A stretch of 64,000 nt of DNA, taken from assembly GCA_947478725.1 (NCBI GenBank), contig CANJWZ010000018.1, positions 1 through 64,000 on the forward strand, read 5' to 3'. Origin of the DNA: Comamonadaceae bacterium (GTDB lineage: Bacteria; Pseudomonadota; Gammaproteobacteria; Burkholderiales; Burkholderiaceae_C). Below the pieces are notes generated by a model. It ran no database searches and was not told where the DNA came from. It saw nothing but the letters and a program-made list of their open reading frames with translations. Below, in pieces: positions 44,315 to 64,000 of the stretch (within the stretch, counting starts at the first letter, position 1; each line of letters opens with the position of its first letter). The translations under genes were made by a program, and so were the position numbers.

Positions 44315-45064
44315 TTAAACGGATGCTTTGGCGTCAACACCCAGGTATGCACGAACCATCAGGCTTTGACTAAATTCACTGGACAACCCAGTAAATACCA
44401 CTTGTCCTTTAGATAAAACACAAACACGATCTGCGACCGATAAAGCAATGCGACTTTGCTCCGCCAAAATGACCGCTACGTTTCCAAAAACTTCAGCTCG
44501 AAGAGCAAAAAATTCATAAATAACCTCCGTCAGGAGCGGTGAAAGTCCCATGCTTGGCTCATCCAGTAGCAATGCCACTGGCCTTGCGATCAAAGCACGC
44601 CCAATGGCCAGCATCTGCTGCTCACCGCCGCTGAGCAGTCCACTGGCAACATCCCGCCTCCTAGCGATGTTAGGGAACATGGTAAATATGCGCTCTATTT
44701 CTGCATTCAGTTCTTTTGGAGGGCATCGCTTGGAGGCAAGTCCTGCCATTTGCAGATTCTCAAGGACTGTCAATGGCGCAACCACTTGTCTGCCTTCCGG
44801 AACCTGAAGCAGCCCAGATCGCGCAATTTGATCTGGCCTAAGACCACTCACCAGCTGACCGCATAGCGTGACTCGTCCGCTCTGTATGGGCAATAGACCA
44901 CTCACAGCTCGCAGAGTTGTGGTCTTGCCGGCGCCATTGGGTCCGAGAAGAGCGACGACTTCTCCAGAGTTAACCGACAGATTAAAGTCCGTGACAGCTC
45001 TCACATGTCCATATGAAACGGAGACATTTTCAATCACAAGCGCTGGTTGTTGATGTGCATTCAT
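44315..45064 (-). CDS. LIV-type ABC transporter ATPase (LivF-like)
   Basis: A 249-residue ABC ATPase. Walker A is 'LLGPNGAGKTTTLRAVSG', the signature is 'LLSGGEQQMLAIGRAL', Walker B is 'ALLLDEPSMGLSPLLTEV' and 'VILAEQSRIALSVADR' has Gln at the H-loop position, as in LivF. The start overlaps the LivMG fusion stop (ATGA). Last gene of the second transporter operon, next to the IS remnant. Confidence 0.92.
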   Translation of the reverse strand: MNAHQQPALVIENVSVSYGHVRAVTDFNLSVNSGEVVALLGPNGAGKTTTLRAVSGLLPIQSGRVTLCGQLVSGLRPDQIARSGLLQVPEGRQVVAPLTVLENLQMAGLASKRCPPKELNAEIERIFTMFPNIARRRDVASGLLSGGEQQMLAIGRALIARPVALLLDEPSMGLSPLLTEVIYEFFALRAEVFGNVAVILAEQSRIALSVADRVCVLSKGQVVFTGLSSEFSQSLMVRAYLGVDAKASV

Positions 45065-46779
45065 CGCTTAGCCGCCCCTTGACCGCCCACATAAGCATTA
45101 ATGACCAACTCCTGTTGCAATACGCTGTCTGGGTCGCCAGAAGCAATGACAAGACCAAAATCCAGTACAACCAGTCGGTCGCAGTATTGACTCATCATGG
45201 CCACATCATGCTCTACCACAATGATGCCTATACCCTGTGACAGCAGCGCAGCAATACGTGCAAAAACATCCTCACGTTCCTGCGGATCCATGCCTGCGGT
45301 AGGTTCATCAAGCAACAAAAGCTTTGGTCGACTAGCAACGGCCCGAGCAATCTCAACTCTGCGACGAAGACCATAAGACAGCTCACCAGCGTACCTGTCA
45401 GCGATATGCGCAAGTCCGTGCTCTTGTAAAACTCGCTCAATCTCGTAAATTCGTCTTGACTGCCTTTGCTTGCCATTTGGGAGAACAGAGTTTCCGCCAT
45501 TTGTACTATGAAGACCAATCGTGACGTTATCCCGCACACTGAGATCATCGACCAAACGAATGGTCTGAAAAGTACGTGCTATGCCGGCGCGCGACATGAG
45601 GTGCGGACTTCCAAACAAACTCTGAATTGCTTGACCCCGAAGCACGCCAGAACCACCCGTAGGTTTGTAGGCGCCCGATATAACGTTGAGCAAAGTTGTC
45701 TTGCCAGAGCCATTGGGTCCAATGACACCAAGCAACTCGCCACTAGAACAAGCCAATGAAACACTTTGTAACGCAATAATGCCTCCAAAGTGCATGGAGA
45801 TATCAGCTAACTCGATGACCGTCTCACGGCTTTCGCTCACCTGATTTTTTCGTGAAAGCCTGTCGAATTTTATTGTTGCGTTATTTAGAGCGTTGAATTC
45901 AGCGTCCAAAACTTGACCCCTTGAGGTCTTTCTTCGACGAAGAAAATCACTCACAACACCGATCAGTCCAAACGGTGCGAATGCAACAACTGTAATGATG
46001 ATCACCCCATTCACAATTCCCTGATACTCACCCACCACCGTGACGACCTGCGACAAAGTCGACATTAAAATGGTGCCAAGCAAAGCCCCACCCACATAGA
46101 CCATTCCACCCATGACGACATTGGCTAAAGTGTGCGCGAGCAAACCGAAATTGAAAAAGCCTGGTTCAACAAAACCCGCTAAGTGAACATTGAGCGCCCC
46201 AGCAAGACCACACAAAAAACCTGCCAGTGCCATCAATCCAATTCGATAGGCAACGACATTAATGCCTTGATGGCCCGCCATGAGTGCGTCCTCGCGAATG
46301 GCCACGATGGACAGGCCCATGCGTGAACGACGTATCGCAAACAGCAACACCAATGCAAGAGCAACAGATCCAACGATCGCCAAATCAGTTGTTGACCGCG
46401 GAATTCCAACTCGTCCCTGGGCTGCACCAGTCAGTGGTATGTTGAGCACCGCTGCACTGACAGCTTCACTGAATGCAATGGTGGCAATAGCCAGGTAAAT
46501 GCCATTTAGACGCCCCAAGACGGCTGCCAATATCAAACCGCAAAGTGTGGCAGCGACAGTGCCACCCGCCACAGCCACAAAGAACGGCAAATGAGCATCA
46601 AGGGATAAAACGGTTGCAGTGTAGGATCCAACTGCCATCAACCCCATGTGCGGCAAGGCAAAAATTCCTGCATTAAGTAATACATAGATAGCCATTGCCA
46701 CCAGACTTAGTACCAATGTGCTTCGCGCAGCAAACGCATATACACCAAAGATTTCGAGTATCTGAGCGTTTAATTCCAT
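45061..46779 (-). CDS. Fused LIV-type permease and ATPase (LivM-LivG)
   Basis: A 572-residue fusion. Residues 1-290 are LivM with about nine helices ('FALPHMGLMAVGSYTATVLS', coupling loop 'RRSRMGLSIVAIREDALMAGHQGINVVAYR'). After a charged linker (about 290-325), residues 325-572 are LivG: Walker A 'GVIGPNGSGKTTLLNVISG', 'GIARTFQTIRLVDDLSV', signature-like 'ELSYGLRRRVEIARA', Walker B 'LLLLDEPTAGM', H-loop 'IIVVEHDVAMM'. It supplies one permease half and one ATPase of the importer. Confidence 0.93.
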   Translation of the reverse strand: MELNAQILEIFGVYAFAARSTLVLSLVAMAIYVLLNAGIFALPHMGLMAVGSYTATVLSLDAHLPFFVAVAGGTVAATLCGLILAAVLGRLNGIYLAIATIAFSEAVSAAVLNIPLTGAAQGRVGIPRSTTDLAIVGSVALALVLLFAIRRSRMGLSIVAIREDALMAGHQGINVVAYRIGLMALAGFLCGLAGALNVHLAGFVEPGFFNFGLLAHTLANVVMGGMVYVGGALLGTILMSTLSQVVTVVGEYQGIVNGVIIITVVAFAPFGLIGVVSDFLRRRKTSRGQVLDAEFNALNNATIKFDRLSRKNQVSESRETVIELADISMHFGGIIALQSVSLACSSGELLGVIGPNGSGKTTLLNVISGAYKPTGGSGVLRGQAIQSLFGSPHLMSRAGIARTFQTIRLVDDLSVRDNVTIGLHSTNGGNSVLPNGKQRQSRRIYEIERVLQEHGLAHIADRYAGELSYGLRRRVEIARAVASRPKLLLLDEPTAGMDPQEREDVFARIAALLSQGIGIIVVEHDVAMMSQYCDRLVVLDFGLVIASGDPDSVLQQELVINAYVGGQGAAKR

Positions 46780-46793
46780 CGTTGTCTATTCTT

Positions 46794-47684
46794 TCAAACT
46801 CGTTCAAGATCATTTGACGTTTTGAGCAATCCACTGGGGCGAACGACCAAAAACAGCAATAAGAACAAGAAAACCACCAGATCACGATATGAAGTGTCGA
46901 TATATGCCACAGCATATGTGGATGCCAAACCAATGATCAATCCACCCAGTGCAACGCCCATCACGCTACCAAATCCTCCCACCACCATGGCGGCGATGGC
47001 AATGACGAGGTATGTGCCGCCAAGATGAGAACTGATCACGTTAAATGCCATTGCAACCAGAACAGCTGCGACCCCGCCCAGAGCACCAGAGAGGAAAAAC
47101 AATCCCACACTCACCTTGTCGACATTGGTCCCCAGCAAAGCGGCCACATCACGATTAAAGGCCACAGCCCGCACCTCTCGCCCCCATTCAGTGCGATGAA
47201 CCAACCAAGCCAGTATCAACATCAGAGAAACAGTCAACACCAAGATAGTGAGATCAAGCGTATTGAACTGCATGGATCCCAAATGCAAGCTCTGAACAGG
47301 ATAAGCCTCACGTGGAATTCGCTCAGCCATTCCACCCAGAACCTTGGAGGCCACTTCTTCCAAAACCATCAAAGCACCCAAGCTGGAAATGAAAGCAGCC
47401 AGTTGAGTGTGTCGGCGCTTAAGAAGGCGTCTAACAAAGACAAAGTAGGCCATCACGTTGATCAGGCCAGCCAACACAGCCGCTACGGGCAATGCCGCCC
47501 ACAAAGGTACGCCAACCCGTGCCGTCAGAAACCAAGCAACGATTGCACCCCATGTAAACACGCCCGCATGCGCAACGTGAAAGACCTTAAGATTCGCCAA
47601 GACCAGCCCGAAGCCTAGACCGTACAAACCATAGACACTGCCCAGTACAAGACCGTTCAGCGTTTGTTGAGCCCAAAACTCCAT
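46794..47684 (-). CDS. LIV-type ABC transporter permease (LivH-like)
   Basis: A 296-residue permease with eight or so helices. 'GLGFGLVLANLKVFHVAHAGVFTWGAIVAWFL' and 'RTEWGREVRAVAFNRDVAALLGTNVDKVSVGLFFLSGALGGVAAVL' are the LivH signatures. AGGA precedes the ATG. It lies 14 bases upstream of the fusion gene and 27 bases downstream of the receptor gene. Confidence 0.92.
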   Translation of the reverse strand: MEFWAQQTLNGLVLGSVYGLYGLGFGLVLANLKVFHVAHAGVFTWGAIVAWFLTARVGVPLWAALPVAAVLAGLINVMAYFVFVRRLLKRRHTQLAAFISSLGALMVLEEVASKVLGGMAERIPREAYPVQSLHLGSMQFNTLDLTILVLTVSLMLILAWLVHRTEWGREVRAVAFNRDVAALLGTNVDKVSVGLFFLSGALGGVAAVLVAMAFNVISSHLGGTYLVIAIAAMVVGGFGSVMGVALGGLIIGLASTYAVAYIDTSYRDLVVFLFLLLFLVVRPSGLLKTSNDLERV

Positions 47685-47711
47685 AGCGGGTCCTTTTTAT
47701 GCGCTGTGCAA

Positions 47712-48845
47712 TCAGTTAGCAATGCCAACAATGTCGCCATTATCAGCAAAGCGCGATATTGTTCCAGGTGAGACGACATCGCCGCTTGCTGTGAGTGCTA
47801 ATTCCATGATCCCGTTTTTTGAAACGAGGTCTCCTTTGGAGGCAGCGGGTATCGCGGCCTTGAGGTTCTCTCCTGTGATGGGCTTGCCAGCTTTCTCCAC
47901 ATCAACCGCTGCCGCTGCAATGAGCCATGCCACTTGGTAACCCACACCGCTATAGGATGTGGGAACAGCGTTGAATTTTTGTTTGTAGGCCGCCTCGAAT
48001 GCAGCTGATCGACCACCGCCTGGCGCCCAAGCTTGTGGGAAAACCATGCTGCTTGCAGCCTTGCCCGCAATCGTGAAAGTTTGAGGACTGGTGGCAATCG
48101 TTCCAGCCAAGAGGACATTTTGCATTCCCATAGAATTCATTTGCTGAATGATGTTACCTGCTTGCTCCGGCAGAACTGATAAAACCAGCGCATCAATGTT
48201 GGCACTCTTGAGGTTGGTGATGACGGCTGAGAAGTTAGAGTCTTTCATAGTGACATTTTGAGTCGACACATAGTTCACACCAAGACCGTCCAAGGTTGCG
48301 GCTGCAAGGGTCGGAAAAGATGGATTGTCAGTGGCCACGATGAGGCCTATGCGTTTTGCACCTTTGGCGATTAAGTGCTTACCGATAGAGCTTGAGGATG
48401 TCTTAAGGTCAGCTAAGCGAAAGGCATAGCCACCTTTGTTTTCCAATTGACTGCCAGCACCGCTGATGAAAGCCATTTTTGCATCATTGGCAAGAGGTGC
48501 AACTGCTTGGCCAATAGGGCTTTGAGAGTCACTCACAATGATGGGGAGTTTGCGCTGGGCAAATTGATTGAAAGACGTTACAGCCTTGGTGACTTCGGAA
48601 TTGGTGTCCAGCACCTCCATCACGATAGTGGTTTTGGTTGAATTAAGAACGCCCGATCGAGCGATGTCTGCCAATGCTATTTCAAAGCCATTCTTGAAAG
48701 GCACACCGAACGAGGCTGCTGCGCGGCCAGTTAAGTTGCCCAGCAAACCGACCTTGACCTCGGTCGCCCAGGAGGCAAGAGGAAGGGCCGCTGCAACGGC
48801 AATAACAACACACTTGCGCAGACTTAGGGATGTAAGTTTTATCAC
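47712..48845 (-). CDS. LIV-type periplasmic substrate-binding protein
   Basis: A 377-residue receptor. A signal peptide ('KCVVIAVAAALPLASWA|TEV') precedes 'VKVGLLGNLTGRAAASFGVPFKNGFEIALADI', 'PIIVSDSQSPIGQAVAPLANDAKMAFISGAGSQL', 'IGLIVATDNPSFPTLAAA' and 'YSGVGYQVAWLIAAAAV'. GTG 48845 has GGAGA eight bases upstream and is preferred to ATG 48884, which would precede the ribosome site. It heads the second transporter operon and probably binds the island's growth substrate. Confidence 0.9.
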   Translation of the reverse strand: MIKLTSLSLRKCVVIAVAAALPLASWATEVKVGLLGNLTGRAAASFGVPFKNGFEIALADIARSGVLNSTKTTIVMEVLDTNSEVTKAVTSFNQFAQRKLPIIVSDSQSPIGQAVAPLANDAKMAFISGAGSQLENKGGYAFRLADLKTSSSSIGKHLIAKGAKRIGLIVATDNPSFPTLAAATLDGLGVNYVSTQNVTMKDSNFSAVITNLKSANIDALVLSVLPEQAGNIIQQMNSMGMQNVLLAGTIATSPQTFTIAGKAASSMVFPQAWAPGGGRSAAFEAAYKQKFNAVPTSYSGVGYQVAWLIAAAAVDVEKAGKPITGENLKAAIPAASKGDLVSKNGIMELALTASGDVVSPGTISRFADNGDIVGIAN

Positions 48846-48953
48846 GGTAAGGTCTCCTATTGAACTTGGGTTGAGGGGAAGCAAAAAATCACAGAAATAC
48901 CATCCAATCAGTCACTCAGCGATGGATCTAAATAGATGAATGAAAATGAAATT

Positions 48954-49910
48954 TCAGTCATCGTTGTCAAACGGATTTGGCACGCGGAACGAGTCAACCA
49001 AACCAGCAGTCATATTGGGCGCCATGCGATCGAGCATTTCAACTGTCCAGCCGCCCGCGTGATACAAGGTCGAGACAAATTGAGGGGGTGAGAGCAAAGC
49101 AACTTCATCACCACCGACAAAGAAATCCTGCCCATTGATGTTTTCAGCTGCAGGTGTACAAAGCCATGTGACAAATGCAGCAATGGAATCTGGGGGGGCG
49201 GGACGATCCCAACCAGCATGGCCACGCTCGCCAATCCAAAAGCGTCCAAGCGACTGAACAAATGGACGCCATATGCCGGCCAAGTTTTTGGCAAACCAGT
49301 CGCCGCCGCCTGTATTGCCCGCAGTAGCGCGGGGACGGATGAGGTTACATCGAATATTGAAGCGAGCCTGCTCTCGTGCAACGCATCGGGTCAAACCAGC
49401 CAAACCCTCTTTGGCAGAGGCATATGCAGAATTGAAAACCATGCCTAAACCCGCTTCGGAGCCAGTGTTGATGATGACACCGCCGCCACGTTCGCGCATT
49501 AAAGGCACGCCATACTTGATCATCAAAAACGAGGCCTTGAGGTGACTTCCTAAAACCGTATCCCACTGCTCTTCAGTGAGTTTATGAACGGGGTTGCCCC
49601 CGCGTAAACCGGCATTGTTGACGATGATGTCTAGGCCGCCGAAAGTACTTTTGGCCGTTTCGATGGTCCGTTGCGCACCTTCGGCAGTCATGAGATTTTC
49701 AGTGACAGCAATCGCTTTTCCGCCTGCGGCCAGTATCTCTTCTGTCACCAGTGCAGCTAAATCACGACCCTGTTCGTCCTTGCCGAAATCACTGACAACC
49801 ACCATCGCACCTTCTCGTGCCAAGGCCATGGCCTCACATCGACCAATGCCTCGGCCACTGCCTGTGACCACTGCAACCTTACCTTGAAGTCTGCCTGTAA
49901 CCATGTCCAT
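48954..49910 (-). CDS. Short-chain dehydrogenase/reductase, MFE-type
   Basis: A 318-residue SDR. 'VAVVTGSGRGIGRCEAMALAREGAMVVVSDFGKDEQGRDLAALV' is typical of the SDRs related to 17-beta-HSD4, then 'NNAGLRGGNPVHKL', 'IINTGSEAGLGM' (Ser), and 'YASAKEGLAGL' (YxxxK). It probably oxidises a secondary alcohol or 3-hydroxyacyl-CoA. GAGGAGG lies upstream of the ATG. It is transcribed divergently from the next gene, and its -35 lies in the palindrome at 49999. Confidence 0.88.
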   Translation of the reverse strand: MDMVTGRLQGKVAVVTGSGRGIGRCEAMALAREGAMVVVSDFGKDEQGRDLAALVTEEILAAGGKAIAVTENLMTAEGAQRTIETAKSTFGGLDIIVNNAGLRGGNPVHKLTEEQWDTVLGSHLKASFLMIKYGVPLMRERGGGVIINTGSEAGLGMVFNSAYASAKEGLAGLTRCVAREQARFNIRCNLIRPRATAGNTGGGDWFAKNLAGIWRPFVQSLGRFWIGERGHAGWDRPAPPDSIAAFVTWLCTPAAENINGQDFFVGGDEVALLSPPQFVSTLYHAGGWTVEMLDRMAPNMTAGLVDSFRVPNPFDNDD

Positions 49911-50137: not shown

Positions 50138-51145
50138 ATGGTCAAGGAAGAAGATGCAGAATTTCACGCTCGCGATCCAAAGGATTACGACTGGGCAGAG
50201 ACCCGATTTATTAGTTTTTCAATCCCAGAAGAACAATTATTCGGCAACGTTTATGTGCTGGCGCGGCCCAATGTTGGCGCAGTGATCTCTGACGTCACCA
50301 TTCAAAAGGGATTTTCTAGATTTCCATACGAAATGGATTTCCATGATCCGCACATGCACCTGCCCTGCCCCCCGTCGTTCAGAAAATTCACACTGCGCAA
50401 TGGTCTAAGTGTTGAGGCCGTTCGCCCGCCCTACGAACTCCACTACTCCTACCAGCACAATGGCGGCAATTGCAGTTTTGAGTTTGACTTCACCGCAGTG
50501 GGTGAACCCTTTGACTGTCACGATCCGAACCAAAATCCACTTCTTGGAGACGCAACCTTCTCAGGACTTGGCGATCAGTGGCTCAATGGTCACTACGACG
50601 TCCTGGGGCATGTCAAGGGCGAATTGGTTCTACGCGGTAAACGCTACAAAATTGACAGCTACGACGGTGCGGATCACAGCTGGGGGCCTCGCAAGGAGGA
50701 AGGCATTCGTGCCATGGGCTGGACTGCGGCGGCCTTTGGTCCAGACTATGGATTGCACACCGTCTTTCACCTGAATTTAAAAAACGGAGAAGTACTTTAT
50801 GACAAGCTCCGCTTTGGTTATGTGGTTGATGAAGGCAAAACTTACGGACTTGTGAGTGCCGAATTGACCGCAACTCGAATCGACATGATTGCTGTCAGTA
50901 ATCACATTCGAGCCGTGGATGTTCGGGGCAAGGTCCACGAGATGAGGGGCACAGCCGTTGCTGGACATCCCCAGTACGCCATCAACCCCTGCCAAGCAGT
51001 TTTCCAAACTCTCTTTCGATACGAAGTCAATGGCCGGGTGGGATACGGCGAGAGTGCCGACTGTTTCGGATTAGATTATTTAGCAGAACGCATGTCGGCA
51101 CTGGGGCGTTATCGCGGCGGTGTGCCACCTGCTCCCAGTAACTAA
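50138..51145 (+). CDS. Conserved protein of unknown function, CrtC/AttH lipocalin-like
   Basis: A 335-residue protein with no signal peptide or membrane segment. The pattern of beta-rich segments, with 'YKIDSYDGADHSWGPRKEEGIRAMGWTAAAFGPDYGLHT' in the middle ('DHSWG' also appears in CrtC/AttH two-lipocalin proteins), suggests that fold and perhaps a DUF7064/7065-type family. CrtC relatives hydrate or act on large hydrophobic molecules. CGGAGA precedes the ATG. It leads the plus-strand operon after site 1, so it probably acts on the island's substrate. Function not known. Confidence 0.7.
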   Translation: MVKEEDAEFHARDPKDYDWAETRFISFSIPEEQLFGNVYVLARPNVGAVISDVTIQKGFSRFPYEMDFHDPHMHLPCPPSFRKFTLRNGLSVEAVRPPYELHYSYQHNGGNCSFEFDFTAVGEPFDCHDPNQNPLLGDATFSGLGDQWLNGHYDVLGHVKGELVLRGKRYKIDSYDGADHSWGPRKEEGIRAMGWTAAAFGPDYGLHTVFHLNLKNGEVLYDKLRFGYVVDEGKTYGLVSAELTATRIDMIAVSNHIRAVDVRGKVHEMRGTAVAGHPQYAINPCQAVFQTLFRYEVNGRVGYGESADCFGLDYLAERMSALGRYRGGVPPAPSN

Positions 51146-51159
51146 GAGGAGTATGCCCA

Positions 51160-52374
51160 ATGGCCTCTAACGAATACGCGGTGCTGGATGCACCGACCCG
51201 CGATTTCATTGAACACATGCAGCTCAAATATCCAACTGAGCGTGAAACCAACGAGCTGCTGGTGCGAAAGCTCGAGCGAAGAGCAAATCAAACGCAGGAT
51301 TACCATGTGCCTCGGTTGTCAGAAATGGAATCCTGGATTCATGCATTTTTTGCAGCCAACTTAGAGTCGCCTTTTCAAATCTCTCACCCACGATGGTTAG
51401 CGGGTGGCGCTTCTAAGCTGCAAGTGCTCTTTGAAATTGACTGGCAGCAGGCAGGTCGACAGCGCCATGATCGCATGGTGGTTCGAATGGATCCTGCCGA
51501 ATCACACAATGCCACGAGTCGATTGCGAGAAGCGGAGTTGTTGCGAGCATTCAGCGGCATCATTCCTGTTCCCGAGGTCTTCTTTGTTGATGAGAATGCG
51601 CGGTGGTTCCCTGAGCCTGCATTGATCTACGCATTCTCTGAGGGCGTCACCAAGCCCAGTACAACCGCATCTGGCGCAGTCAGCGGACTGGGGATCCGTT
51701 TTGGGCCAGAACTGCGAGCCCAACTTGGGCCGCAGTTCGTTGAACATCTGGCAAAAATTCACTCTTTCCCAATTGAATCTGCAGGCTTTACAAGCATGGA
51801 GTCACCCTCTCTGGGTACAACCGAGGCAGCGAAATTGCAGTTAAATCGCGCTAAACGTGTTTGGGAAGAAGATCGTGGCGAGGACTTTCCTTTGATGGAT
51901 GTGGCCGTGAACTGGTTGTCTCGTAATTTGCCGGTGATGGATCAAGTGAGTGTGATCCATGGCGACTATCGAAGTGGCAACTTTTTATTTGAAGAGTCGA
52001 GTGCACGCATCACCACGTGGCTGGACTGGGAGCGCGGTCATCTGGGTGACCGCCACCGCGACCTGGCATGGATTACGCAAGCGATGTTTGGTGATCCTCG
52101 GGAAGATGGGCAGGGCTACTACATTTGCGGCCTTTTGAGCGAACTTGAGTTTCAAGAACAGTACCAAGCTTTGTCAGGCCTGGTGATTGATCCTGTGCGC
52201 TTGCAGTGGTATTCAGTGCTGAATTGCTACCAAGCACTGGTCTCTACACTGGGCAGTTGCTATCGGGTGGTGCGCATGGGCAAGAACCACCAAGATGCGC
52301 TCATGGTTGCGCTCAAAGCCGAAGCGGCCATGGCCAGCGCGCGTCTTCAGGAAATGCTTCAGGAGATCCTCTAA
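51160..52374 (+). CDS. APH-family phosphotransferase, probable hydroxyacyl-CoA kinase
   Basis: A 404-residue kinase-fold protein. The catalytic loop is 'VIHGDYRSGNFLFE' near residue 268 and the metal motif is 'WLDWERGHLGDRHRDLAWI' near 290. The D-W-E-x3-L-G-D-x3-D-L form is that of LvaA and of the kinase domains of ACAD10/11, which phosphorylate the 4-hydroxyl of hydroxyacyl-CoA so that it can be eliminated. It is not a resistance gene by context. Its stop overlaps the next start (TAATG). The substrate is inference. Confidence 0.8.
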   Translation: MASNEYAVLDAPTRDFIEHMQLKYPTERETNELLVRKLERRANQTQDYHVPRLSEMESWIHAFFAANLESPFQISHPRWLAGGASKLQVLFEIDWQQAGRQRHDRMVVRMDPAESHNATSRLREAELLRAFSGIIPVPEVFFVDENARWFPEPALIYAFSEGVTKPSTTASGAVSGLGIRFGPELRAQLGPQFVEHLAKIHSFPIESAGFTSMESPSLGTTEAAKLQLNRAKRVWEEDRGEDFPLMDVAVNWLSRNLPVMDQVSVIHGDYRSGNFLFEESSARITTWLDWERGHLGDRHRDLAWITQAMFGDPREDGQGYYICGLLSELEFQEQYQALSGLVIDPVRLQWYSVLNCYQALVSTLGSCYRVVRMGKNHQDALMVALKAEAAMASARLQEMLQEIL

Positions 52375-55819: not shown

Positions 55820-55909
55820 TAAGTCTGATTTATTTGGCATCATGCAGGCTGTCTTGCTTCGCTTGTCTTCAATCAGTGGAGTGATTTTCATCTTAACTTG
55901 GAGCTTTGC

Positions 55910-56992
55910 TTGGCGACCTCAAGACCTCAAGTCTTCATCGAATCTGCCGCGCTTTATATGGGCTGGAGAGATGAAACCCGAAATCTCTCGGAGCTTATTT
56001 TTGATACGGTCCGACGTGCTATTGATGACAGCCTGCATGGACTCAATGACATTGAGTCGGTTGTATTGGCCGCTCACGATCTGGTGGATGGAAGATCCCT
56101 CTCCAGCATGGTGACCGCACCTGCGGCAGGTGCTTATTTGCGAGATGAAATTCGCTTCAGCGATGATGGTGCTGTCGCCTTAGCTGCTGCCGTTGCGCGA
56201 ATTGAGGCTGGCGAAGCAACCCGGTCTATCGTCGCAGCATGGGGACGTGCCAGCGAACACGATGTAGATGCCTTATCAATGTCGATGTTCGATCCCTTCA
56301 TACAAGGCCCAATGGGTTTGAATGAAATTCAAGTTTCAGCCATGCGGGCTCAGTTGTGGTTACAGGCAGGTGGTCAATACACCGATCACTCGGGTGCCGT
56401 AAAACGTCGCCAGGCTGCGGCAGCGGCCAATGAGCGTGCATTGCACACCAAATCGAGGAAATCGCAGCCCAATTATCCCCTGACAGCTGATGATTTGCCC
56501 GCTTGGGCTGACGTTGTAGCAGCAGTGGTGGTGTCCTCAAAGGGTGGGCCTGTGAAAATAAAAGGAATGGGGCAGGCCTCTGAGCCCTATGCCATAGGAG
56601 ACCGAAAACTACTCGCAATGAAAAGCGCTCGCAAAGCCTGTGATCTGGCGCTGAAAGATGCGGGACTCACACTCAAAGATCTGGACTTGTTCGAAATTGG
56701 CGGCTTAACTTTGATGGATGAAGCCATTGTTCTTGAAGCCATTGGTCTGGCGGGAGCTGGTCAAGGACTTTCTGTGTTGGCCAATCACCCTGCAGTCAAT
56801 CTATCTGGCGGCAGCGCTGCAGGATTTTGTGATCCGGCCATGGGCTTGGTAAGGGTGGTAGAAGCTGCACTTCAACTGCAGGGTCTTGCTGGGGCAATTC
56901 AACGTCCTGGTGTTCAACGTGCGCTTGCGATCTGTCCGGCGATTGTCGCAGCCCAGACTCACACCGCCATCGTGTTGGAGAGCGCATCATGA
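55910..56992 (+). CDS. Thiolase-like protein (SCP-x/Ltp2 type), subunit A
   Basis: A 360-residue thiolase-fold protein. It follows the SCP-x/Ltp2 layout ('VFIESAALYMGWRDETRNLSELIFDTVRRAIDDSLHGLNDIESVV' at the start, 'VNLSGGSAAGFCDPAMGLVRVVEAALQLQG' near the end). The usual nucleophile Cys region has no Cys, and the GHPxG motif is replaced ('GFCDPAMG'). It is thus unlikely to be a normal thiolase. TTG 55910 has GGAG seven bases upstream. It overlaps the next gene (ATGA) and probably pairs with it. Confidence 0.82.
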   Translation: MATSRPQVFIESAALYMGWRDETRNLSELIFDTVRRAIDDSLHGLNDIESVVLAAHDLVDGRSLSSMVTAPAAGAYLRDEIRFSDDGAVALAAAVARIEAGEATRSIVAAWGRASEHDVDALSMSMFDPFIQGPMGLNEIQVSAMRAQLWLQAGGQYTDHSGAVKRRQAAAAANERALHTKSRKSQPNYPLTADDLPAWADVVAAVVVSSKGGPVKIKGMGQASEPYAIGDRKLLAMKSARKACDLALKDAGLTLKDLDLFEIGGLTLMDEAIVLEAIGLAGAGQGLSVLANHPAVNLSGGSAAGFCDPAMGLVRVVEAALQLQGLAGAIQRPGVQRALAICPAIVAAQTHTAIVLESAS

Positions 56993-58152
56993 GGCCGGTT
57001 GCAATTGTTGGTGTTGGCCAAACTTCCTATCGACGCCATCACGCCGATAAAAGTTCTAGGGAGCTCATTTGGGCTGCAGCCCGGGAAGCGCTAGATGATG
57101 CTGGCATGTCGATGGACGACATTGATGTTGTGATGGCAGGCGTTGCACCGGATGCCCTTGCAGGTGAAGCTGCGGTTGATCGCACTGGCGTGATGGGTAA
57201 CGGCATTCCCTACATGCGCATCAATACTGGGGGGGTGACTGGATCTTCTACAGTTTTTGCAGGCGCATCCTACATCCGTGCAGGACGAGCGCGCGCTGTG
57301 TTGGTATTTGCACTTGAACGAATGGGTCAGGCCACCTCATCTCAGCAAGTCTTCAACACCATCTTCGATCCGATCTACGAAAAAGATTTTCCACTGACGA
57401 CCATCACTATGGCCGCATTGCGGGCATCTATGCTGATGCGCCTTTATGGCTATACCGACCGGCACTGGGCAGAGATTGCCGCCCGCAATTATCGGCACGC
57501 TGCAAGAAACCCGCTTGCCCATATTCGCCGCGAAGCCACTGCTGAAGAAGTAATGCAATCACCACTTTTGGCGTGGCCTATCCATCGCATGGAAGCCTGC
57601 CCTATGTCTGAAGGTGCCTGCGCCATGGTTTTGGTTGATGCCGAATATGCAGCCGGCCGCAAACCAGTTTGGATACAAGGTTATGCATCGACTTCTGACA
57701 GTTACGCCATGGGTGACCGAATTCACCGCCCTGGTGCAAACTTGGTTGACCTGTTGTCACTTCGACTTTCTGCTGAAAAGGCATACAAGCAAGCAGGCGT
57801 AACCGACCCCCTGAAACAAATCAGGGTCTTTGAGCTTTACTCAGCGTTCTCTAGCGCCGAAGCCATGGCCTATCCAGCGCTTGGTTTATGTTCATCAAAA
57901 GATGGCCCTGCGTTTGTTGAACAGCAACTGGTTGATTCTTCGCTACCCGTTTTCAATCCCTCTGGCGGACCCCAGGGGGCCAACCCTGTCAGCGCTACCG
58001 CGATGGTTCGAATTGCCGAATGCGCACTTCAGGTGCGTGGCTCCTTGAAGACACATCAGGTTGACGGGGTTGAACGTGCAGTGGCAACTGGACAAGGTGG
58101 CGCGACACAGTTCTCTACGGTGTGCGTACTTGGACGTCACCCAATTTCCTGA
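56989..58152 (+). CDS. Thiolase-like protein (SCP-x/Ltp2 type), subunit B
   Basis: A 387-residue thiolase-fold protein. 'VAIVGVGQTSYRRHHADKSSRELIWAAAREALDDAGMSMDDIDVVM' is the family start. At the nucleophile place it reads 'NTGGVTGSSTVFAGASYIRAG', without Cys, and near the end 'SGGPQGANPVSATAMVRIAECALQVRG' in place of the GHPxG motif. This resembles aldolase-type members that work with a DUF35 partner, which follows 11 bases later. Reaction not known. Confidence 0.85.
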   Translation: MRPVAIVGVGQTSYRRHHADKSSRELIWAAAREALDDAGMSMDDIDVVMAGVAPDALAGEAAVDRTGVMGNGIPYMRINTGGVTGSSTVFAGASYIRAGRARAVLVFALERMGQATSSQQVFNTIFDPIYEKDFPLTTITMAALRASMLMRLYGYTDRHWAEIAARNYRHAARNPLAHIRREATAEEVMQSPLLAWPIHRMEACPMSEGACAMVLVDAEYAAGRKPVWIQGYASTSDSYAMGDRIHRPGANLVDLLSLRLSAEKAYKQAGVTDPLKQIRVFELYSAFSSAEAMAYPALGLCSSKDGPAFVEQQLVDSSLPVFNPSGGPQGANPVSATAMVRIAECALQVRGSLKTHQVDGVERAVATGQGGATQFSTVCVLGRHPIS

Positions 58153-58163: not shown

Positions 58164-58664
58164 TTGAGTTCAAACGATTTAATCACGATCCAGGGTCACT
58201 GGAACTTTAACTACACCTACTTCGCTGGTGAAGTTGCAACTCGTTTCTTCAATGAGTTGAAGGACAACCGCCGGATCATGGGATCTTTGTGTCCATCCTG
58301 CAATCGCCTGTTGGTGCCTGCCCGTGCCTTTTGCGATGCCTGCATGGCGCGCACAACCGATTGGAGAAGCGTTGGCCCGGAAGGAACGCTGGAGACATTC
58401 ACAATCATCACGACGGCCTTTCCAGGCTTACCCGAGCCACCCATCGTGATGGCGTATGTCACCCTTGACGGGGCAGACACTGCGCTGATCAATGTTGTGC
58501 GCGGTGAAGATTTGAGTGATATCCAGGCAGCAGCCAAACGCCTCAACGCACAGCCGCGTGTAACCGTTCGCTTTGTGGAGGATCCCAATGGTCGAATTAC
58601 CGATTTCTGGTTCGAACTACTGCATAAGCCTAGTACGAGTAACGCCAAGGCTGCCGCAGCATGA
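58164..58664 (+). CDS. DUF35 Zn-ribbon/OB-fold protein, partner of thiolases A/B
   Basis: A 166-residue protein: an N-terminal helix, a zinc ribbon 'LCPSCNRLLVPARAFCDAC' (C-x2-C-x11-C-x2-C) near residues 44-62, and an OB fold ('GTLETFTIITTAFPGLPEPPIVMAYVTLDGADTALINVV'). DUF35 proteins such as ChsH2 bind CoA substrates and complex with thiolase-like Ltp2. It starts with TTG after GAGGAG and overlaps thiolase C (ATGA). Confidence 0.88.
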   Translation: MSSNDLITIQGHWNFNYTYFAGEVATRFFNELKDNRRIMGSLCPSCNRLLVPARAFCDACMARTTDWRSVGPEGTLETFTIITTAFPGLPEPPIVMAYVTLDGADTALINVVRGEDLSDIQAAAKRLNAQPRVTVRFVEDPNGRITDFWFELLHKPSTSNAKAAAA

Positions 58665-59845
58665 GCGGCAATAGTATCTCTGGCAAAGCAGCCATTGTTG
58701 GAATTGGCGAGACTGATTATTTGCGCGGTACAGATCAATCGATTCTTCAGATGATCCTCTCGGCCAGCATGGCCGCCATCAAGGATGCAGGGCTCAAGCC
58801 CTCTGATGTGGATGGCATCATTCCACCACCCGGTTTCGTGGCATGGGATGAAATCGCCGCACACTTGGGTGTACCCGATGTTCGCTACACAGCCTGCCCG
58901 CAAATGGGAGGTGCCAGTCCAACAGCAGCACTCATCAATGCATCCATGGCGGTCGCCACTGGCATGGCCAATGTGGTTTTAGTGCCAATTGGCTGGAACG
59001 GCTATTCAGCCATTAGGCCGCGGCCAGATGCGCGACCCAACCGTCGTCGGTTCTCGGCTGCATTCTTTGATGTGGTCAAAAACTACTATGCGCCTTATGG
59101 ACTTCGGTCTGCGCCTTGGTGGTATTCGCTTTACCTACAGCGTTATGTCAAGCTCTACAACGTTCCGCCTGAGGCAGCAGGCGAAGTTGCGCTGGCATGC
59201 AGAGCACACGCACAACTCAACGACAAGGCTTTGATGCGTGGTCGGCCACTGACCATGGAAGATTACTTGGCCTCTGCTTACGTGAGTGAACCGCTGCGCA
59301 AGCTAGACTGCTGCGTCGAGACCGACTGTGCAGCAGCAATCATTGTCACCACGCCCGAACGTGCGCGTGACATGCCGCACACACCCGTGATTGTGATCGG
59401 TGGCGCCGAGGGTCACCCCGATAGGCCCGATGAGTTAATCAACCGCAAGGACGTGTTGGATCTAGGTTTAGATCGCGCTGCACCAAGAGCATTTTCAATG
59501 GCTGGCGTCAAACCTACCGACATGGACTTTCTTCAAATCTATGATTGTTTTACGCACATTGTTCTGCTCGAAATAGAAGCACTGGGTTTGGCACCGCGTG
59601 GTGGGGCAGCAGACTTCGTCAAGGACGGCAATATTCAGTTAGGCGGAAAGTACCCTCTCAACACACACGGTGGACTCATGTCTCAGGGTCACTGCTGGGG
59701 TATGAACCACATTGTTGAAGCCACCCGACAACTTCGTCATGAGGCTGGCGCGGCGCAAGTTAAGGACTGCGAACTTGGTCTTGTCACTGGTTATGGCGAT
59801 CTTGGTGATGCGAGCATCGCCATTTTGGCAAGGAGCACCTCATGA
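58661..59845 (+). CDS. Thiolase-like protein (Ltp2 type), C
   Basis: A 394-residue protein close to the steroid side-chain aldolase Ltp2 in its layout: 'AAIVGIGETDYLRG', 'KPSDVDGIIPP', 'GRPLTMEDYLASAYVSEPLRKLDCCVETDCAAAIIVT', 'IYDCFTHIVLLEIEALGL', 'INTHGG'-like 'LNTHGGLMSQGHCWGMNHIVEATRQLR'. The nucleophile Cys region reads 'MGGASPTAAL', without Cys; a GH pair remains where Ltp2 has Tyr. It overlaps DUF35 genes on both sides, so it forms a complex with one or both. Confidence 0.85.
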   Translation: MSGNSISGKAAIVGIGETDYLRGTDQSILQMILSASMAAIKDAGLKPSDVDGIIPPPGFVAWDEIAAHLGVPDVRYTACPQMGGASPTAALINASMAVATGMANVVLVPIGWNGYSAIRPRPDARPNRRRFSAAFFDVVKNYYAPYGLRSAPWWYSLYLQRYVKLYNVPPEAAGEVALACRAHAQLNDKALMRGRPLTMEDYLASAYVSEPLRKLDCCVETDCAAAIIVTTPERARDMPHTPVIVIGGAEGHPDRPDELINRKDVLDLGLDRAAPRAFSMAGVKPTDMDFLQIYDCFTHIVLLEIEALGLAPRGGAADFVKDGNIQLGGKYPLNTHGGLMSQGHCWGMNHIVEATRQLRHEAGAAQVKDCELGLVTGYGDLGDASIAILARSTS

Positions 59846-60276
59846 CACAAACAAATACAGCGGCCAATGCCTCACCGCACGTCATGATTCCCAAGCCCGA
59901 TGAACTTGATTTGGATCTCTATCAAGCGATCGCCAGACAAGGTGAAATTTGTATGCAACGTTGCAGCTCTTGCAGCTTGCACACGCACCCTCCGCGTTAC
60001 TATTGCCCTGCTTGCGCAAGTCCACAATTCACATTTGCGCCCGTATCCGGTCTTGGTGTGGTTTATTCCTATACTGTTTCACACATGAGCGTCGAGCCTG
60101 CTTGGCAACCACTTGTTCCATTTTTAACTCTGGTCGTTGAGCTTCAAGAAGGACCACGCATCGTTGCAACTGCGCGCAATTTTGACATCAGCTCCGTCAA
60201 AATAGGAATGCCTGTGCGTGTGATCACTGAAGCCAAGGGAACAGACTTTGCTATCTTTTGGGCTGAACCACAATGA
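59842..60276 (+). CDS. DUF35 Zn-ribbon/OB-fold protein, partner of thiolase C
   Basis: A 144-residue DUF35 protein with a zinc ribbon 'QRCSSCSLHTHPPRYYCPACAS' near residues 45-65 and an OB fold 'GLGVVYSYTVSHMSVEPAWQPLVPFLTLVVELQEGPRIVAT'. It overlaps both neighbours by four bases (ATGA). It probably supplies CoA binding to the thiolase-like protein encoded just before it. Confidence 0.87.
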   Translation: MTQTNTAANASPHVMIPKPDELDLDLYQAIARQGEICMQRCSSCSLHTHPPRYYCPACASPQFTFAPVSGLGVVYSYTVSHMSVEPAWQPLVPFLTLVVELQEGPRIVATARNFDISSVKIGMPVRVITEAKGTDFAIFWAEPQ

Positions 60277-61106
60277 GCGAGAACAACACTCCACCCCTTC
60301 AAGCGCCTGTCTTGTTCACAATTGAGAACGGTATCGCGTGTATCACGCTGAACAGACCCGAAAAAATGAATGCGCTGAATCCAGAGATGATTGTGCGTTT
60401 GGCGCGTTGCTGGGATGCCATCGAATCCGATACATCAGTCCGTGTTGCCATACTGACGGCTCATGGTGAAAGAACATTTTGTGCTGGCGCTGATTTAGGG
60501 CGACTGACACCGCTTCTGATGCGCGCACGATCTGCCGAGGATGAATGGGATGAGGCCTTACTCGCCGAGCCCAAAATCCTCAACCGTGCCATGCTGCGAA
60601 GGTTAGACTTCAATACACCCGTCATTTTGGCAGCACGTGGAACGGTGGTTGCCGGTGGTATGGAGTTGGCTTTGGCCTGTGACCTTCGTGTCGTATCGGA
60701 CAAAACGACGCTAGGTTTAGCGGAGGTCAAGCGCGGATTGATTCCTGCTGCAGGTGGCATTGCTCGTGCTTCGCGCCAACTCGGCTGGGCTGCAGCAGCA
60801 GAAATTTTGCTGGTTGGCGATCAAATCACATCTGCCGAGGCCTTGCGCATCGGGTTGGTAAATCGAGTCGTTGCAGAACAGGATGTAATGCCTACCGCAA
60901 TGACGCTGGCCGAAAAAATGGCGCAGAACTCACCTCTTGCCATGCGCAAAGCAAAGGAAGCCATGCTTGGCTCATCAGGTCGCCCCTTGCAAGAAGCCTT
61001 TGATGTAGAAGATGCATGCATCAAACTGGTCTTGCGCTCACAAGATGCACGAGAAGGGTCTCGCGCATTCATGGAAAAAAGGAAGCCCAGCTTTACGGGC
61101 ACCTGA
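60273..61106 (+). CDS. Enoyl-CoA hydratase/isomerase family protein
   Basis: A 277-residue crotonase. 'IACITLNRPEKMNALNPEMI', oxyanion loop 'AHGERTFCAGADLGRLTPL' and 'ACDLRVVSDKTTLGLAEVKRGLIPAAGGIARASRQLG' are present; Glu of 'AEVKRG' fits one catalytic position, while the other (near 'ARGTVVAGGMELAL') is Gly. It probably hydrates or isomerises an enoyl-CoA. Last gene of the plus-strand operon, convergent with the acyl-CoA dehydrogenases. Confidence 0.9.
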   Translation: MSENNTPPLQAPVLFTIENGIACITLNRPEKMNALNPEMIVRLARCWDAIESDTSVRVAILTAHGERTFCAGADLGRLTPLLMRARSAEDEWDEALLAEPKILNRAMLRRLDFNTPVILAARGTVVAGGMELALACDLRVVSDKTTLGLAEVKRGLIPAAGGIARASRQLGWAAAAEILLVGDQITSAEALRIGLVNRVVAEQDVMPTAMTLAEKMAQNSPLAMRKAKEAMLGSSGRPLQEAFDVEDACIKLVLRSQDAREGSRAFMEKRKPSFTGT

Positions 61107-61117
61107 ATCCCAACAAT

Positions 61118-62203
61118 TCAAGATGGGGTTTGCAATTCTGCGGCCATCTCCCGAAGGCGCTCTGGTGAGCCCAAAGCCTGATAGCTCCAGGCATTTCGCT
61201 TGAACCAGTAGTGCAAACCCAGAACATCGGTAATGCCCATGCCGCCATGGACCTCTGTGGCAGAGCGTGAAATCAGGCGGGATGCTTCGGCCAAGTAGGA
61301 TTTGGCATGCAGACAGGCTAGTGTTGCATCTGGCAACTTTTCGTCAAGTGCATAGCCTGAGTACCAAACAAGTGATCTGGCTGGTTCTAGTTCTGCCGCC
61401 ATTTCGGCGCACAGATGCTTAACTGCTTGAAAGGTGCCAATGGGTCGACCAAATTGCTGGCGCAGCTTTGCAAAGCTGACGGCTTCATCAAGCATCTTTG
61501 AAGAAGCCCCCAACATATCGGCAGCTAGCATGAGGCGAGCCACATCTGCCAGATATTGCACCAGTTTAGGATTTGACTGCCCCAATCCAACACAAGTCAC
61601 ACCATCAAAGTCCAATCGGACAGACGAGCGGGTTCGATCTATGGTTGGTAATTCAGTTACCAGCAGACCAGGTGCACATCGATCGACCCAATGCAGACGG
61701 GCTTCATCGTCAACCACAATGAAATGTTGGGCACCAGCTTCATCCATCACAAAAAGACTGCGTCCGAACAGTCGGTTATCTCGGCAGTTCACGCCCGATC
61801 CGGAACGCCTACCGGCTGTAAATTCTGACAAGGCAATTCCCATTCGCAATTGTCCAGTTGCCATGCTTGGTAACCATTGATTTTTTTGGTCACTATTTCC
61901 CGCATGCATGATGGCCAATGGCGCCAGAATCACCGAACTTAGAAATGGCGAAGGCACGACAAATTGTCCGAGAGATTCTGCAACAAGCGCAGCATCTAGA
62001 ACCCCCATGCCTAAGCCGCCATAAGACTCCGGAATGATCAAGCCTGTGATACCTAAATCCACCAGCACTTGCCACACATCCGAGGGGAACGGTTCGCGAT
62101 CGTTGACGTGACGCCTTACTCGCTCCAGTGGACAGACTTTGGTTAAAGCCCTGTTGATCGAATCTTGTAACTCTTTTTGTGTCGATGTAAGACAGAATTC
62201 CAT
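61118..62203 (-). CDS. Acyl-CoA dehydrogenase, short (beta-like) subunit
   Basis: A 361-residue acyl-CoA dehydrogenase. 'LRQQFGRPIGTFQAVKHLCAEMAAELEPARSLVWYSGYAL' and 'EVHGGMGITDVLGLHYWFKRNAWSYQALG' are typical; the middle domain is shortened and the FAD-binding loops are weak. It lies one base after the larger 402-residue gene. Steroid-type FadE proteins occur as adjacent unequal genes forming alpha2-beta2 enzymes; this pair fits that arrangement. Confidence 0.88.
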   Translation of the reverse strand: MEFCLTSTQKELQDSINRALTKVCPLERVRRHVNDREPFPSDVWQVLVDLGITGLIIPESYGGLGMGVLDAALVAESLGQFVVPSPFLSSVILAPLAIMHAGNSDQKNQWLPSMATGQLRMGIALSEFTAGRRSGSGVNCRDNRLFGRSLFVMDEAGAQHFIVVDDEARLHWVDRCAPGLLVTELPTIDRTRSSVRLDFDGVTCVGLGQSNPKLVQYLADVARLMLAADMLGASSKMLDEAVSFAKLRQQFGRPIGTFQAVKHLCAEMAAELEPARSLVWYSGYALDEKLPDATLACLHAKSYLAEASRLISRSATEVHGGMGITDVLGLHYWFKRNAWSYQALGSPERLREMAAELQTPS

Positions 62204-62204
62204 G

Positions 62205-63413
62205 TCATTCCTTGGTCAAACCAAGCGCCAGTTTTGGCTCACGAGGAAGTCCGAGTCCTCGCTCGGCAATGATGTTCTTTTGAATTTGAGCTGTACCACC
62301 ACCAATGATCATGCCGATGTCAAACATGTTGCGACGTGGCCAAGTACCATGCGATCGCACTTCGGCACTATCAGGCAGCAGTAGGCCCAACTCCCCCATG
62401 ACATCTACCGCCAATGCCGACAGTTGGTAATTGAGCTCACAAGTTTGGAGCTTGACAATCAAGCGCGCTAACAAGTTATCTTCTCCAGACGCATTGGCGC
62501 TGATCAAGCGCATCCCGTGGTACCTCATGGCCATCACCCGAGCCTGAAGTCGCATCGCCCTTTGGCGAAACACCGGCATATCGATGACACACTCGCCGTC
62601 AATGCGCTCGTTGCGCATCAATTCAAGGATCGAATTCATTCGGGCCATCGATGCATCAGGATCGCCCAACATGCCCCTTTCATGTTTAAGCGTGGCATTG
62701 GAGACAGACCAGCCTTGACCACGTTCACCAACGAGTTGCGACTTGGGAACTCGAACATCTTTGAAAAACACCTCATTGAACTCAGAGGCATCTGTCATGG
62801 TTTTGAGCGGGCGGATCTCAATACCAGGCGTCTTCATTGAAAGGATTAAATAACTGATTCCCAAATATTTATTGGGCGCGTTGGACTCGGTTTTAACCAA
62901 GGCAAACATCATGTCTGCACCATGCGCGGTGGTGGTCCAAATTTTCTGCCCATTGATGATGAAGTCTGGCCCATCATCTACCGCGCGAGTGGTCAGCGAA
63001 GCCAAATCGGAACCAGCTCCCGGTTCAGAATATCCTTGGCACCAAATGACTTCACCCCTGAGAGTCGGTGCAATCCAGCGTTGCTTTTGTTCGTCAGACC
63101 CCATTTCGAGCAAGGTCGGCACCAACATCGAAATGCCTTGATTGACCAAGCCCCATGGCGCCCGAGCACGGGAAAACTCTTCAGCGATGATGCGGGACTC
63201 CAAGATGTCCCCCTCGGCGCCGAAGCCCCCGTACTCTTTGGGAATTGTCCGTGCAGCGTAGCCATGCTCCATCAGGAGTGCCTGCCAAGCTAAGGCCTCT
63301 GGTGTTGGACGGTTCACACCAAAAGGTTTGGGAAACCGGCTAGCGTGCGCGCTCAAAAAAGCACGCACTTCTTTGCGAAATGACTCGTGTTGGGCGCTGT
63401 ATTTCAGGTCCAT
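62205..63413 (-). CDS. Acyl-CoA dehydrogenase, large (alpha-like) subunit
   Basis: A 402-residue acyl-CoA dehydrogenase. 'WCQGYSEPGAGSDLASLTTRAVDDGPDFIINGQKIWTT' binds FAD and substrate, then 'NEVFFKDVRVPKSQLVGERGQGWSVSNATLKHERG' and the C-terminal 'GGGTAQIQKNIIAERGLGLPRE'. It lacks Glu in the IxEG position, as do many FadE types using another base. It probably forms a heteromer with the next gene, giving the 2,3-dehydrogenation step of the island's pathway. Confidence 0.9.
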   Translation of the reverse strand: MDLKYSAQHESFRKEVRAFLSAHASRFPKPFGVNRPTPEALAWQALLMEHGYAARTIPKEYGGFGAEGDILESRIIAEEFSRARAPWGLVNQGISMLVPTLLEMGSDEQKQRWIAPTLRGEVIWCQGYSEPGAGSDLASLTTRAVDDGPDFIINGQKIWTTTAHGADMMFALVKTESNAPNKYLGISYLILSMKTPGIEIRPLKTMTDASEFNEVFFKDVRVPKSQLVGERGQGWSVSNATLKHERGMLGDPDASMARMNSILELMRNERIDGECVIDMPVFRQRAMRLQARVMAMRYHGMRLISANASGEDNLLARLIVKLQTCELNYQLSALAVDVMGELGLLLPDSAEVRSHGTWPRRNMFDIGMIIGGGTAQIQKNIIAERGLGLPREPKLALGLTKE

Positions 63414-63425
63414 CTTGCAATGCCC

Positions 63426-64000
63426 TCAGGATTCAATGGTGCCCTGCAAGCGCTCAACCGCCAACAAATAGTCGTTCATGAAGTCAATCACGACAGAACG
63501 CGTGCTTTGTGTAGTATTCATGAGGCCTACGCCTTGACCCACAAAGTAGCTGGCCAGTTTACGTGCACCTTCATGCCCGCCGTTGGCCAACTTGAGGACC
63601 TTGCTCATGGCGGTATCTGACACCATTGATTGAAGTGGCATTGGCAACGGACGAGGTGCCCCTTCTTGCTCCCAGGCATCGGTCCAATCTGATCGCAATT
63701 GTCGACAAAACTTACCCGTGCGTGAGCGTGATCGAATTGTGCCCGCAGAGGTTGCTGCCAGCATCTTTTCTTTGACTGCTGGGGATGTTTCGGCCTCAGA
63801 GGTGGTAAGCCACACTGAACCTGTCCAGGCACCAGCAGCCCCCATGGCCATGCAACCTGCCATCTGACGTCCTGTGACGATGCCACCTGCAGCCAAAACA
63901 GGAAGAGAAATACCTAGGTTGTGCAATGCATCCAGCACCTCTGGTACCAGCACGATGGTGCCAACTTCTCCGCAATGACCACCGGCCTCGGTTCCTGCAG
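63426..64000 (-). CDS. Nitronate monooxygenase / 2-nitropropane dioxygenase-like, partial
   Basis: The frame is open to the right edge; only about 190 C-terminal residues are present. 'GTEAGGHCGEVGTIVLVPEV' is the FMN-phosphate loop with the usual GGHxG motif, followed by 'LPVLAAGGIVTGRQMAGCMAMGAAGAWTGSVWL', a TIM-barrel flavin site. Relatives oxidise nitronates, reduce enoyl groups or act in polyketide and steroid-like pathways. It lies 12 bases upstream of the dehydrogenase pair. Its start and N-terminus lie outside the window. Confidence 0.88.
   Translation of the reverse strand, partial: AGTEAGGHCGEVGTIVLVPEVLDALHNLGISLPVLAAGGIVTGRQMAGCMAMGAAGAWTGSVWLTTSEAETSPAVKEKMLAATSAGTIRSRSRTGKFCRQLRSDWTDAWEQEGAPRPLPMPLQSMVSDTAMSKVLKLANGGHEGARKLASYFVGQGVGLMNTTQSTRSVVIDFMNDYLLAVERLQGTIES

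Follow-up and report, generated by a model that had tools for sequence, protein, structure and literature searches.

Which compound does a bacterium take apart with an importer, a lactonase-like protein, a kinase, a phosphatase and several thiolase-like proteins encoded side by side, and by what reactions? The question is raised by a gene island on contig CANJWZ010000018.1 of a Comamonadaceae bacterium. The window, that is, the whole 64,000-nucleotide stretch analyzed, covers bases 1–64000 of the 76448-base contig, and the island extends beyond its right end: 26 genes, from livF to a TetR regulator gene, span 44315 to 72889 of the contig. A preliminary description of 44315–64000 had read the region as a CoA-dependent catabolic island in compact operons with 4-base overlaps. 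This is supported: the inventory was confirmed by domain and family scans of the open reading frames (a LIV importer, two short-chain dehydrogenases/reductases [SDRs], an AttH/CrtC-like protein, an APH kinase with a small protein, SurE, SMP-30, three thiolase-like and two DUF35 proteins, a crotonase, an acyl-CoA dehydrogenase pair and a nitronate monooxygenase [NMO]-type protein), and the 26 genes have six such overlaps, of which five lie entirely inside the window. The island looks like an undescribed pathway that combines ring opening, phosphorylation and elimination of a hard-to-remove alcohol, and aldolase-like trimming. As the preliminary description had supposed, no known pathway with this combination was found in the literature searched, most subscription papers and all bioRxiv preprints being outside that scope. 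Its interpretation is partly supported and is right in outline, with two corrections: a kinase-lyase pair in place of LvaA, and aldolase-like proteins without the thiolase nucleophile. What was a vague, uncharacterised island becomes a testable pathway.

The heart of the island is a group of three plus-strand genes. The first (50138–51145) encodes the AttH/CrtC-like protein, assigned by Pfam to DUF7064/DUF7065; the second (51160–52374) an APH-family small-molecule kinase with intact HGDYRSGN and DWE motifs; and the third (52374–52904), overlapping the kinase gene by 1 base, a 176-aa protein that has no Pfam domain and is predicted to be all-helical. The best fold match of the AlphaFold model of the DUF7064 protein is the solved structure of 25-phosphosteroid lyase (25-PSL). 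The DUF7064 gene is also the most conserved of the island (96 and 92% identity in G670 and G671, two related loci described below), and its immediate companion is a phosphotransferase gene. Residues H152, D179 and R185 of the protein are conserved in 19, 20 and 20 of 20 aligned rows, respectively. We propose that the protein is a phospho-alcohol lyase acting after the APH protein, a putative alcohol kinase. The closest precedent is 25-HSK/25-PSL of Sterolibacterium denitrificans (PMC8449060, PMC7411048, PMC11061730; PDB 9fzn, 9g2i, 9g4c), which offers the same ATP-dependent phosphotransferase-type kinase and the same lyase fold; the lyase is termed proposed in PMC8449060 and putative in PMC11061730. 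In the island, by contrast, the putative lyase gene adjoins the kinase gene and a gene for a third, small protein comes next, whereas PMC8449060 states that no lyase candidate was located near the 25-HSK gene. The island further has Baeyer-Villiger monooxygenase (BVMO)- and lactonase-type genes, and none of the families tested gave a clear steroid marker.

Does DUF7064 keep such company elsewhere? A tblastn search with the island protein gave 25 places in 15 plasmid records. Taking the one best place per record, and leaving out a second Sphingopyxis record with identical position and score, we examined 14 loci. In 13 of them a phosphotransferase gene lies within 3.5 kb of DUF7064: an APH or ecdysteroid-kinase-like gene in nine, and a gene resembling phosphoenolpyruvate (PEP)-dependent enzymes or pyruvate phosphate dikinase (PPDK) in four (Methylibium PM1, Mycobacterium branderi, Rhodococcus sp. 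ZPP and Paraburkholderia). At the fourteenth, from Rhodococcus oxybenzonivorans (L066), the PPDK gene is 8.7 kb off, and HAD and SurE phosphatase genes adjoin DUF7064. The 11 annotated loci hold 13 kinase features within 3.5 kb of DUF7064 (88 kb in total) against one in the other 123 kb (p = 1e-4, taking the features to be independent); the features were picked by product name, except for one L071 gene, named oxidoreductase, that was picked by Pfam, and coordinates were transcribed by hand. The remaining loci (L062, L067 and L068) are unannotated, were read by homology and lie outside the p-value. Relatives of the small protein were found with a profile only in the five plasmid loci that have a closely related APH (E 9.5e-36 to 9.7e-9). 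Since they follow the APH gene directly in all five, the putative lyase, the kinase and the small protein form, by gene order, a recurrent cassette. In two of these five (L064 and L067) DUF7064 genes flank on both sides.

Two of the plasmid loci deserve separate mention. On pRB98 of R. oxybenzonivorans (L066, 8000–13200), DUF7064, HAD phosphatase and SurE stand among bacterial microcompartment shell genes. On the Methylibium petroleiphilum PM1 plasmid (L065, 10001–20999), DUF7064 is followed by two genes for hypothetical proteins and one for a small protein with a PEP-utilising domain, and B12-binding, AMP-binding, MeaB and mutase genes lie some 7 kb away; this group is possibly a PEP-driven alcohol kinase-lyase set. 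Our proposal offers a concrete role for a domain family so far without a function, which is found repeatedly on catabolic plasmids and, in the case of PM1, beside B12-mutase genes. The names DUF7064 and DUF7065 do not occur in the 12 of 16 papers listed by a literature search, although PDB entries of 2026 imply work on the lyase outside that scope.

Phosphatase genes recur as well. In the island the next gene encodes a SurE phosphatase/nucleotidase (52926–53744, plus strand; TIGR00087 above cut-off), and phosphatase genes are near DUF7064 in three plasmid loci (L064, L066 and L068). Their presence suggests that phosphatases clear dead-end phosphoesters, a suggestion helped by the reported promiscuity of 25-HSK.

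The preliminary description had assigned removal of the hydroxyl to a kinase of the LvaA type. Phosphorylation followed by elimination is supported, but the island kinase is better read as half of a 25-HSK/25-PSL-like pair than as LvaA. Under the LvaA or ACAD10/ACAD11 model, the kinase would phosphorylate the 4-hydroxyl of a CoA ester, the acyl-CoA dehydrogenase pair would eliminate the phosphate, and DUF7064 would do something else. The island does have the APH kinase, the small coupled protein and the dehydrogenase pair, and SMP-30 opening of a lactone would give a hydroxy acid. There is precedent in ACAD10/ACAD11 (PMC11342911, PMC12440821), and the PDB matches of the kinase include ACAD11 (E 2e-8). 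LvaAB-LvaC is alike in the same features: an APH-type kinase, phosphate elimination and a small coupled protein. The island kinase, however, is not fused to a dehydrogenase, and a DUF7064 protein is present. PDB entries 3ats (E 1.5e-11), 9fsg (E 3.3e-11) and 9o56 outscore ACAD11, though all these matches are weak and the comparison covers PDB entries rather than LvaA itself. In addition, the best match of the DUF7064 model is a phospho-lyase, and DUF7064 is tied to kinases, PEP-type included, in loci far from the island. We consider the LvaA/ACAD model unlikely.

How would the chain be shortened? Three thiolase-fold proteins are encoded on the plus strand, thlA (55898–56992), thlB (56989–58152) and thlC (58661–59845), with two DUF35 proteins, DUF35a (58164–58664; a zinc ribbon with four Cys and an OB fold) and DUF35b (59842–60276; zinc ribbon and OB fold). 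None of the three thiolase-like proteins has Cys at the nucleophile column, and the catalytic Cys pair is absent. The second-site Cys is kept only in thlC, within YDCF at residues 294–297, and Gly-Gly occupies the nucleophile column. The corresponding residues are YDCY in Sal and YDCF in trypanosomal SLP; thlB has YSAF and thlA has EIGGLT, with no recognisable catalytic residues. For thlB and thlA the same holds in G670, and in G671 thlB agrees while thlA is slightly different. In Sal, the Tyr and Cys of the motif drive retro-aldol cleavage with a DUF35 partner (PMC12329534). Lack of the nucleophilic Cys together with a Sal-type motif leads us to expect retro-aldol rather than thiolytic cuts by thlC, a candidate role in which DUF35b, whose gene overlaps thlC by 4 bases, would be the partner. 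Of the two modes of shortening foreseen earlier, retro-aldol or thiolytic, only the first finds support. Compared with Sal and Ltp2 (PMC12329534; PDB 9myr, 6ok1), thlC shares the thiolase fold, the missing nucleophile and the DUF35 partner gene, but the island DUF35 lacks the MaoC hydratase domain, and thlC has His at the Tyr344/Gln352 column (phmmer alignment). The other likeness is to Ltp3-Ltp4, a heteromeric aldol-lyase of C24-branched sterol degradation (PMC6678751). It is one of gene order rather than of directly compared sequences, with two adjoining thiolase-like genes without nucleophilic Cys and a DUF35 gene in both, and there is no steroid context in the island. By this analogy thlA/thlB/DUF35a may be an Ltp4/Ltp3-like partner set, although its activity is uncertain.

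Proteins like thlC are common in the order: 28 of the 200 genomes searched, the own genome included, have relatives at E 1e-50. Of the 62 places listed, the island among them, 12 other loci were inspected; a DUF35 gene lies within about 3 kb of the thlC relative in 11, and no thlB was found in the 12 at E 1e-4. Apart from the island and its relatives, only a Simplicispira plasmid showed the order thlA-thlB-DUF35a-thlC-DUF35b (30–39%); contig C170 of genome G672 has the thiolase and DUF35 parts in a different order. Four more thlC relatives (35–37% identity) are present in the own genome (contigs C12, C48, C21 and C36; L056–L059), each near a DUF35 gene and other CoA or SDR genes. By these sequence likenesses the source organism is one with several aldolase-DUF35-type clusters.

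The neighbors of thlC bring up steroids. The enoyl-CoA hydratase (crotonase; 60273–61106, plus strand) has EchA19 as its best NCBIfam match; the small acyl-CoA dehydrogenase gene (61118–62203, minus strand) has IpdE2, with Tcur3481 as best PDB match, and is paired with a larger one (62205–63413, minus strand). With Ltp2 and Sal among the PDB matches of thlC and the 25-PSL fold in the DUF7064 model, the island could be an operon by which a steroid degrader attacks the side chains of steroids or bile acids. The EchA19 and IpdE2 matches, however, are far below the NCBIfam cut-offs, and domain scans of the DUF35 and other island proteins gave no MaoC domain, which ChsH2/Shy would need. The own genome was scanned with PF19298 (KshA_C), and four genomes were scanned with TIGR03213 (for HsaC) and PF00067 (P450). 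At E 1e-10 no P450 match turned up in the own genome, and its TIGR03213 matches are weak, none reaching the cut-off. Its two KshA_C matches are marginal (23.5 and 28.4 bits against a cut-off of 23.3) and fall in VanA-type Rieske proteins, whose VanA_C scores are 161 and 165 bits. Absence of P450 is not general among carriers, since G670 has two matches. Degradation of the steroid nucleus is not supported by the P450, TIGR03213 and KshA_C tests in the own genome (KstD, HsaAB and IpdAB were outside the search), nor are steroids as the substrate. A steroid operon appears quite improbable.

Ring opening has two candidates. The 606-aa type II flavin monooxygenase (FMO)/BVMO-type protein (70362–72182, plus strand) aligns with JsFMO (PMC10028610; PDB 8ACS) from residue 37 to 599 (E 3.9e-108), the SnoaL-like N-terminal extension included, and keeps the active-site His216 and Tyr458 (numbered as published, by way of an inferred constant offset of 16). 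The substrates of JsFMO include certain cyclic and linear ketones (PMC10028610). The SMP-30/gluconolactonase-type beta-propeller (54715–55788, minus strand) is matched best in the PDB by 8djf (E 1.4e-91), an entry named gluconolactonase, and by 7ris (E 4.6e-91), one named beta-propeller lactonase; among the papers listed by a literature search by PDB code, none was on either entry. Opening of a lactone by SMP-30, part of the earlier proposal, is strengthened by the BVMO-type gene, and a lactone step is plausible from these likenesses.

What we observe is which genes are present, that they are conserved as a unit, that DUF7064 has a lyase as its fold match and is linked to phosphotransferase genes, and which motif residues are kept; every reaction, their order and the substrate we infer, as follows. 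The FMO would insert oxygen beside a ketone to give a lactone, from which the SMP-30 enzyme would make, by opening the ring, a hydroxy acid with a tertiary or otherwise blocked hydroxyl. The APH kinase, together with the small helical protein, would phosphorylate this hydroxyl, the DUF7064 protein would eliminate the phosphate to leave an alkene, and SurE would strip dead-end phosphoesters. Two ligases and a CaiB transferase would form the CoA ester; the acyl-CoA dehydrogenase pair, the NMO flavoprotein, the hydratases and the SDRs would carry out a modified beta-oxidation. At a branched beta-carbon thiolysis is impossible, and there thlC/DUF35b, perhaps also thlAB/DUF35a, would cleave by a retro-aldol reaction. 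TetR would control the catabolic unit. That the island is a catabolic unit of this kind, running from FMO through SMP-30 and kinase-lyase to aldolase-like shortening of a cyclic ketone or lactone, probably isoprenoid, that is oxygenated already when imported, we put at about an even chance. Our best guess of the substrate is an oxygenated cyclic isoprenoid: a terpenoid ketone, for instance, or a lactone derived from a carotenoid, with a C–O bond on a quaternary carbon.

Several points weigh against this proposal. DUF7064 and 25-PSL are only 17% identical; the likeness is one of fold, and hydratases and pericyclases share the fold of the model at nearly equal Z. Its linkage to kinases in catabolic clusters is suggestive only, as kinases there may serve other ends. 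The 176-aa protein has no Foldseek match at E < 0.001. The active site of thlA is not recognisable. SMP-30 proteins are not all lactonases. The FMO has Asn in place of the active-site Asp217 of JsFMO (by the same offset), and JsFMO rejects cyclopentanone, cyclohexanone and camphor (PMC10028610).

A wider claim, which we advance tentatively and rate somewhat short of even, is that DUF7064/DUF7065 proteins are widespread phospho-alcohol lyases. They would work with APH or PEP-dependent kinases, the APH branch having a helical third component, and dehydrate alcohols beyond the reach of ordinary dehydratases. The island would then encode an aerobic pathway, other than for sterol side chains, in which a cyclic isoprenoid is opened by a Baeyer-Villiger reaction, dehydrated by the kinase-lyase pair and shortened by retro-aldol cleavage. 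Dehydration of tertiary alcohols at the expense of ATP is a rare chemistry. Should DUF7064 prove to be a marker of it, genomes could be searched for this chemistry, which may matter for how terpenoids, sterols and other branched molecules are broken down.

Is the island a unit at all? The genes could be ordinary fatty-acid or branched-acid beta-oxidation genes lying together by chance, with APH, SurE, SMP-30 and DUF7064 as passengers. The single families are indeed common, as the count of thlC relatives given above illustrates. A scan of GTDB genomes with thlB, however, gave 14 loci, three of which are close relatives. In G670 (metagenome-assembled genome [MAG] WB6_2A_069) all 26 genes from livF to TetR are colinear (76–96% identity; 77–86% for the LIV importer genes). 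In G671 all 22 non-transport genes are found (58–92% identity) in two places, and the LIV genes near both are only 25–49% identical to those of the island over the aligned parts. The G671 record (L006) is titled Bordetella parapertussis but is a MAG of 70% GC (HRSG-H13-bin-83), and the species label is doubtful. Colinearity of 26/26 genes in G670 and recovery of 22/22 in G671 show a grouping beyond chance, as the preliminary description had anticipated for other genomes. With a base composition unlike that of the left flank, and DUF7064, a supposed passenger, as the most conserved member, chance grouping is very improbable. The third relative (L007, a MAG in G672) is a fragment 92–100% like the island core, followed by another CaiB-like gene; G672 has a BVMO relative of only 38%, and L007 is not counted as a full copy.

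The island set is rare in the genome samples searched: only the own genome was found with thlB at E 1e-100 or with DUF7064 at E 1e-8 (1 of 398 genomes of the phylum each), and with thlB at E 1e-60 (1 of 300 genomes of the order). Relatives of thlB with 72–76% identity are in records named Chelatococcus, Actinomadura, Nonomuraea and a Flavobacteriaceae MAG. The G+C content of third codon positions (GC3) is 0.43–0.58 in the island against 0.66–0.71 in the seven left-flank genes measured. Around the G670 copy, none of eight left-flank proteins of the own genome had a match in 16 kb, and the own right flank is unmatched in the 1.4 kb present. Horizontal transfer probably brought the island in; the window has no tRNA gene, the two stretches compared at its boundaries have no 13-mer in common, and no transfer mechanism was found.

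The remaining genes complete the unit. At its left end, on the minus strand, is the four-gene LIV-type importer (44315–48884): an ATPase (44315–45064), a fused permease-ATPase (45061–46779), a permease (46794–47684) and a solute-binding protein (47712–48884). The two SDRs are SDR1, 3-hydroxyacyl dehydrogenase-like (48954–49910, minus strand; best matches PRK07792/PRK07791, below cut-off, with YxxxK and GxxxGxG present), and SDR2 (53754–54662, plus strand; PRK07791-like, below cut-off). The 383-aa NMO/FabK-type flavoprotein gene (63426–64577, minus strand) is cut by the window end at 64000. The preliminary description, seeing no acyl-CoA ligase for the set in the window, had placed one to the right and looked there for a regulator. 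The window indeed has no ligase, and both are found on that side. Just right of the window are an acyl-CoA ligase (64574–66193; PRK07798 above cut-off) and an AcsA/acetoacetate-CoA-ligase-like ligase (66205–68163), then a second crotonase (68189–68998; PRK07327 above cut-off), all on the minus strand, and on the plus strand the CaiB-type CoA transferase (69099–70256) and, beyond the FMO, TetR (72233–72889). Directly right of the island (73063–75031) are low-GC Sel1-repeat and papain-like (C92) genes with GC3 of 0.36 and 0.44. Just to its left (38997–43550) are genes for a TctC receptor, an FAD monooxygenase, and PEP-mutase/isocitrate lyase-family, isochorismatase-fold and Amdase-family proteins, which, going by Pfam matches, we take to resemble part of a nicotinate/maleamate route.

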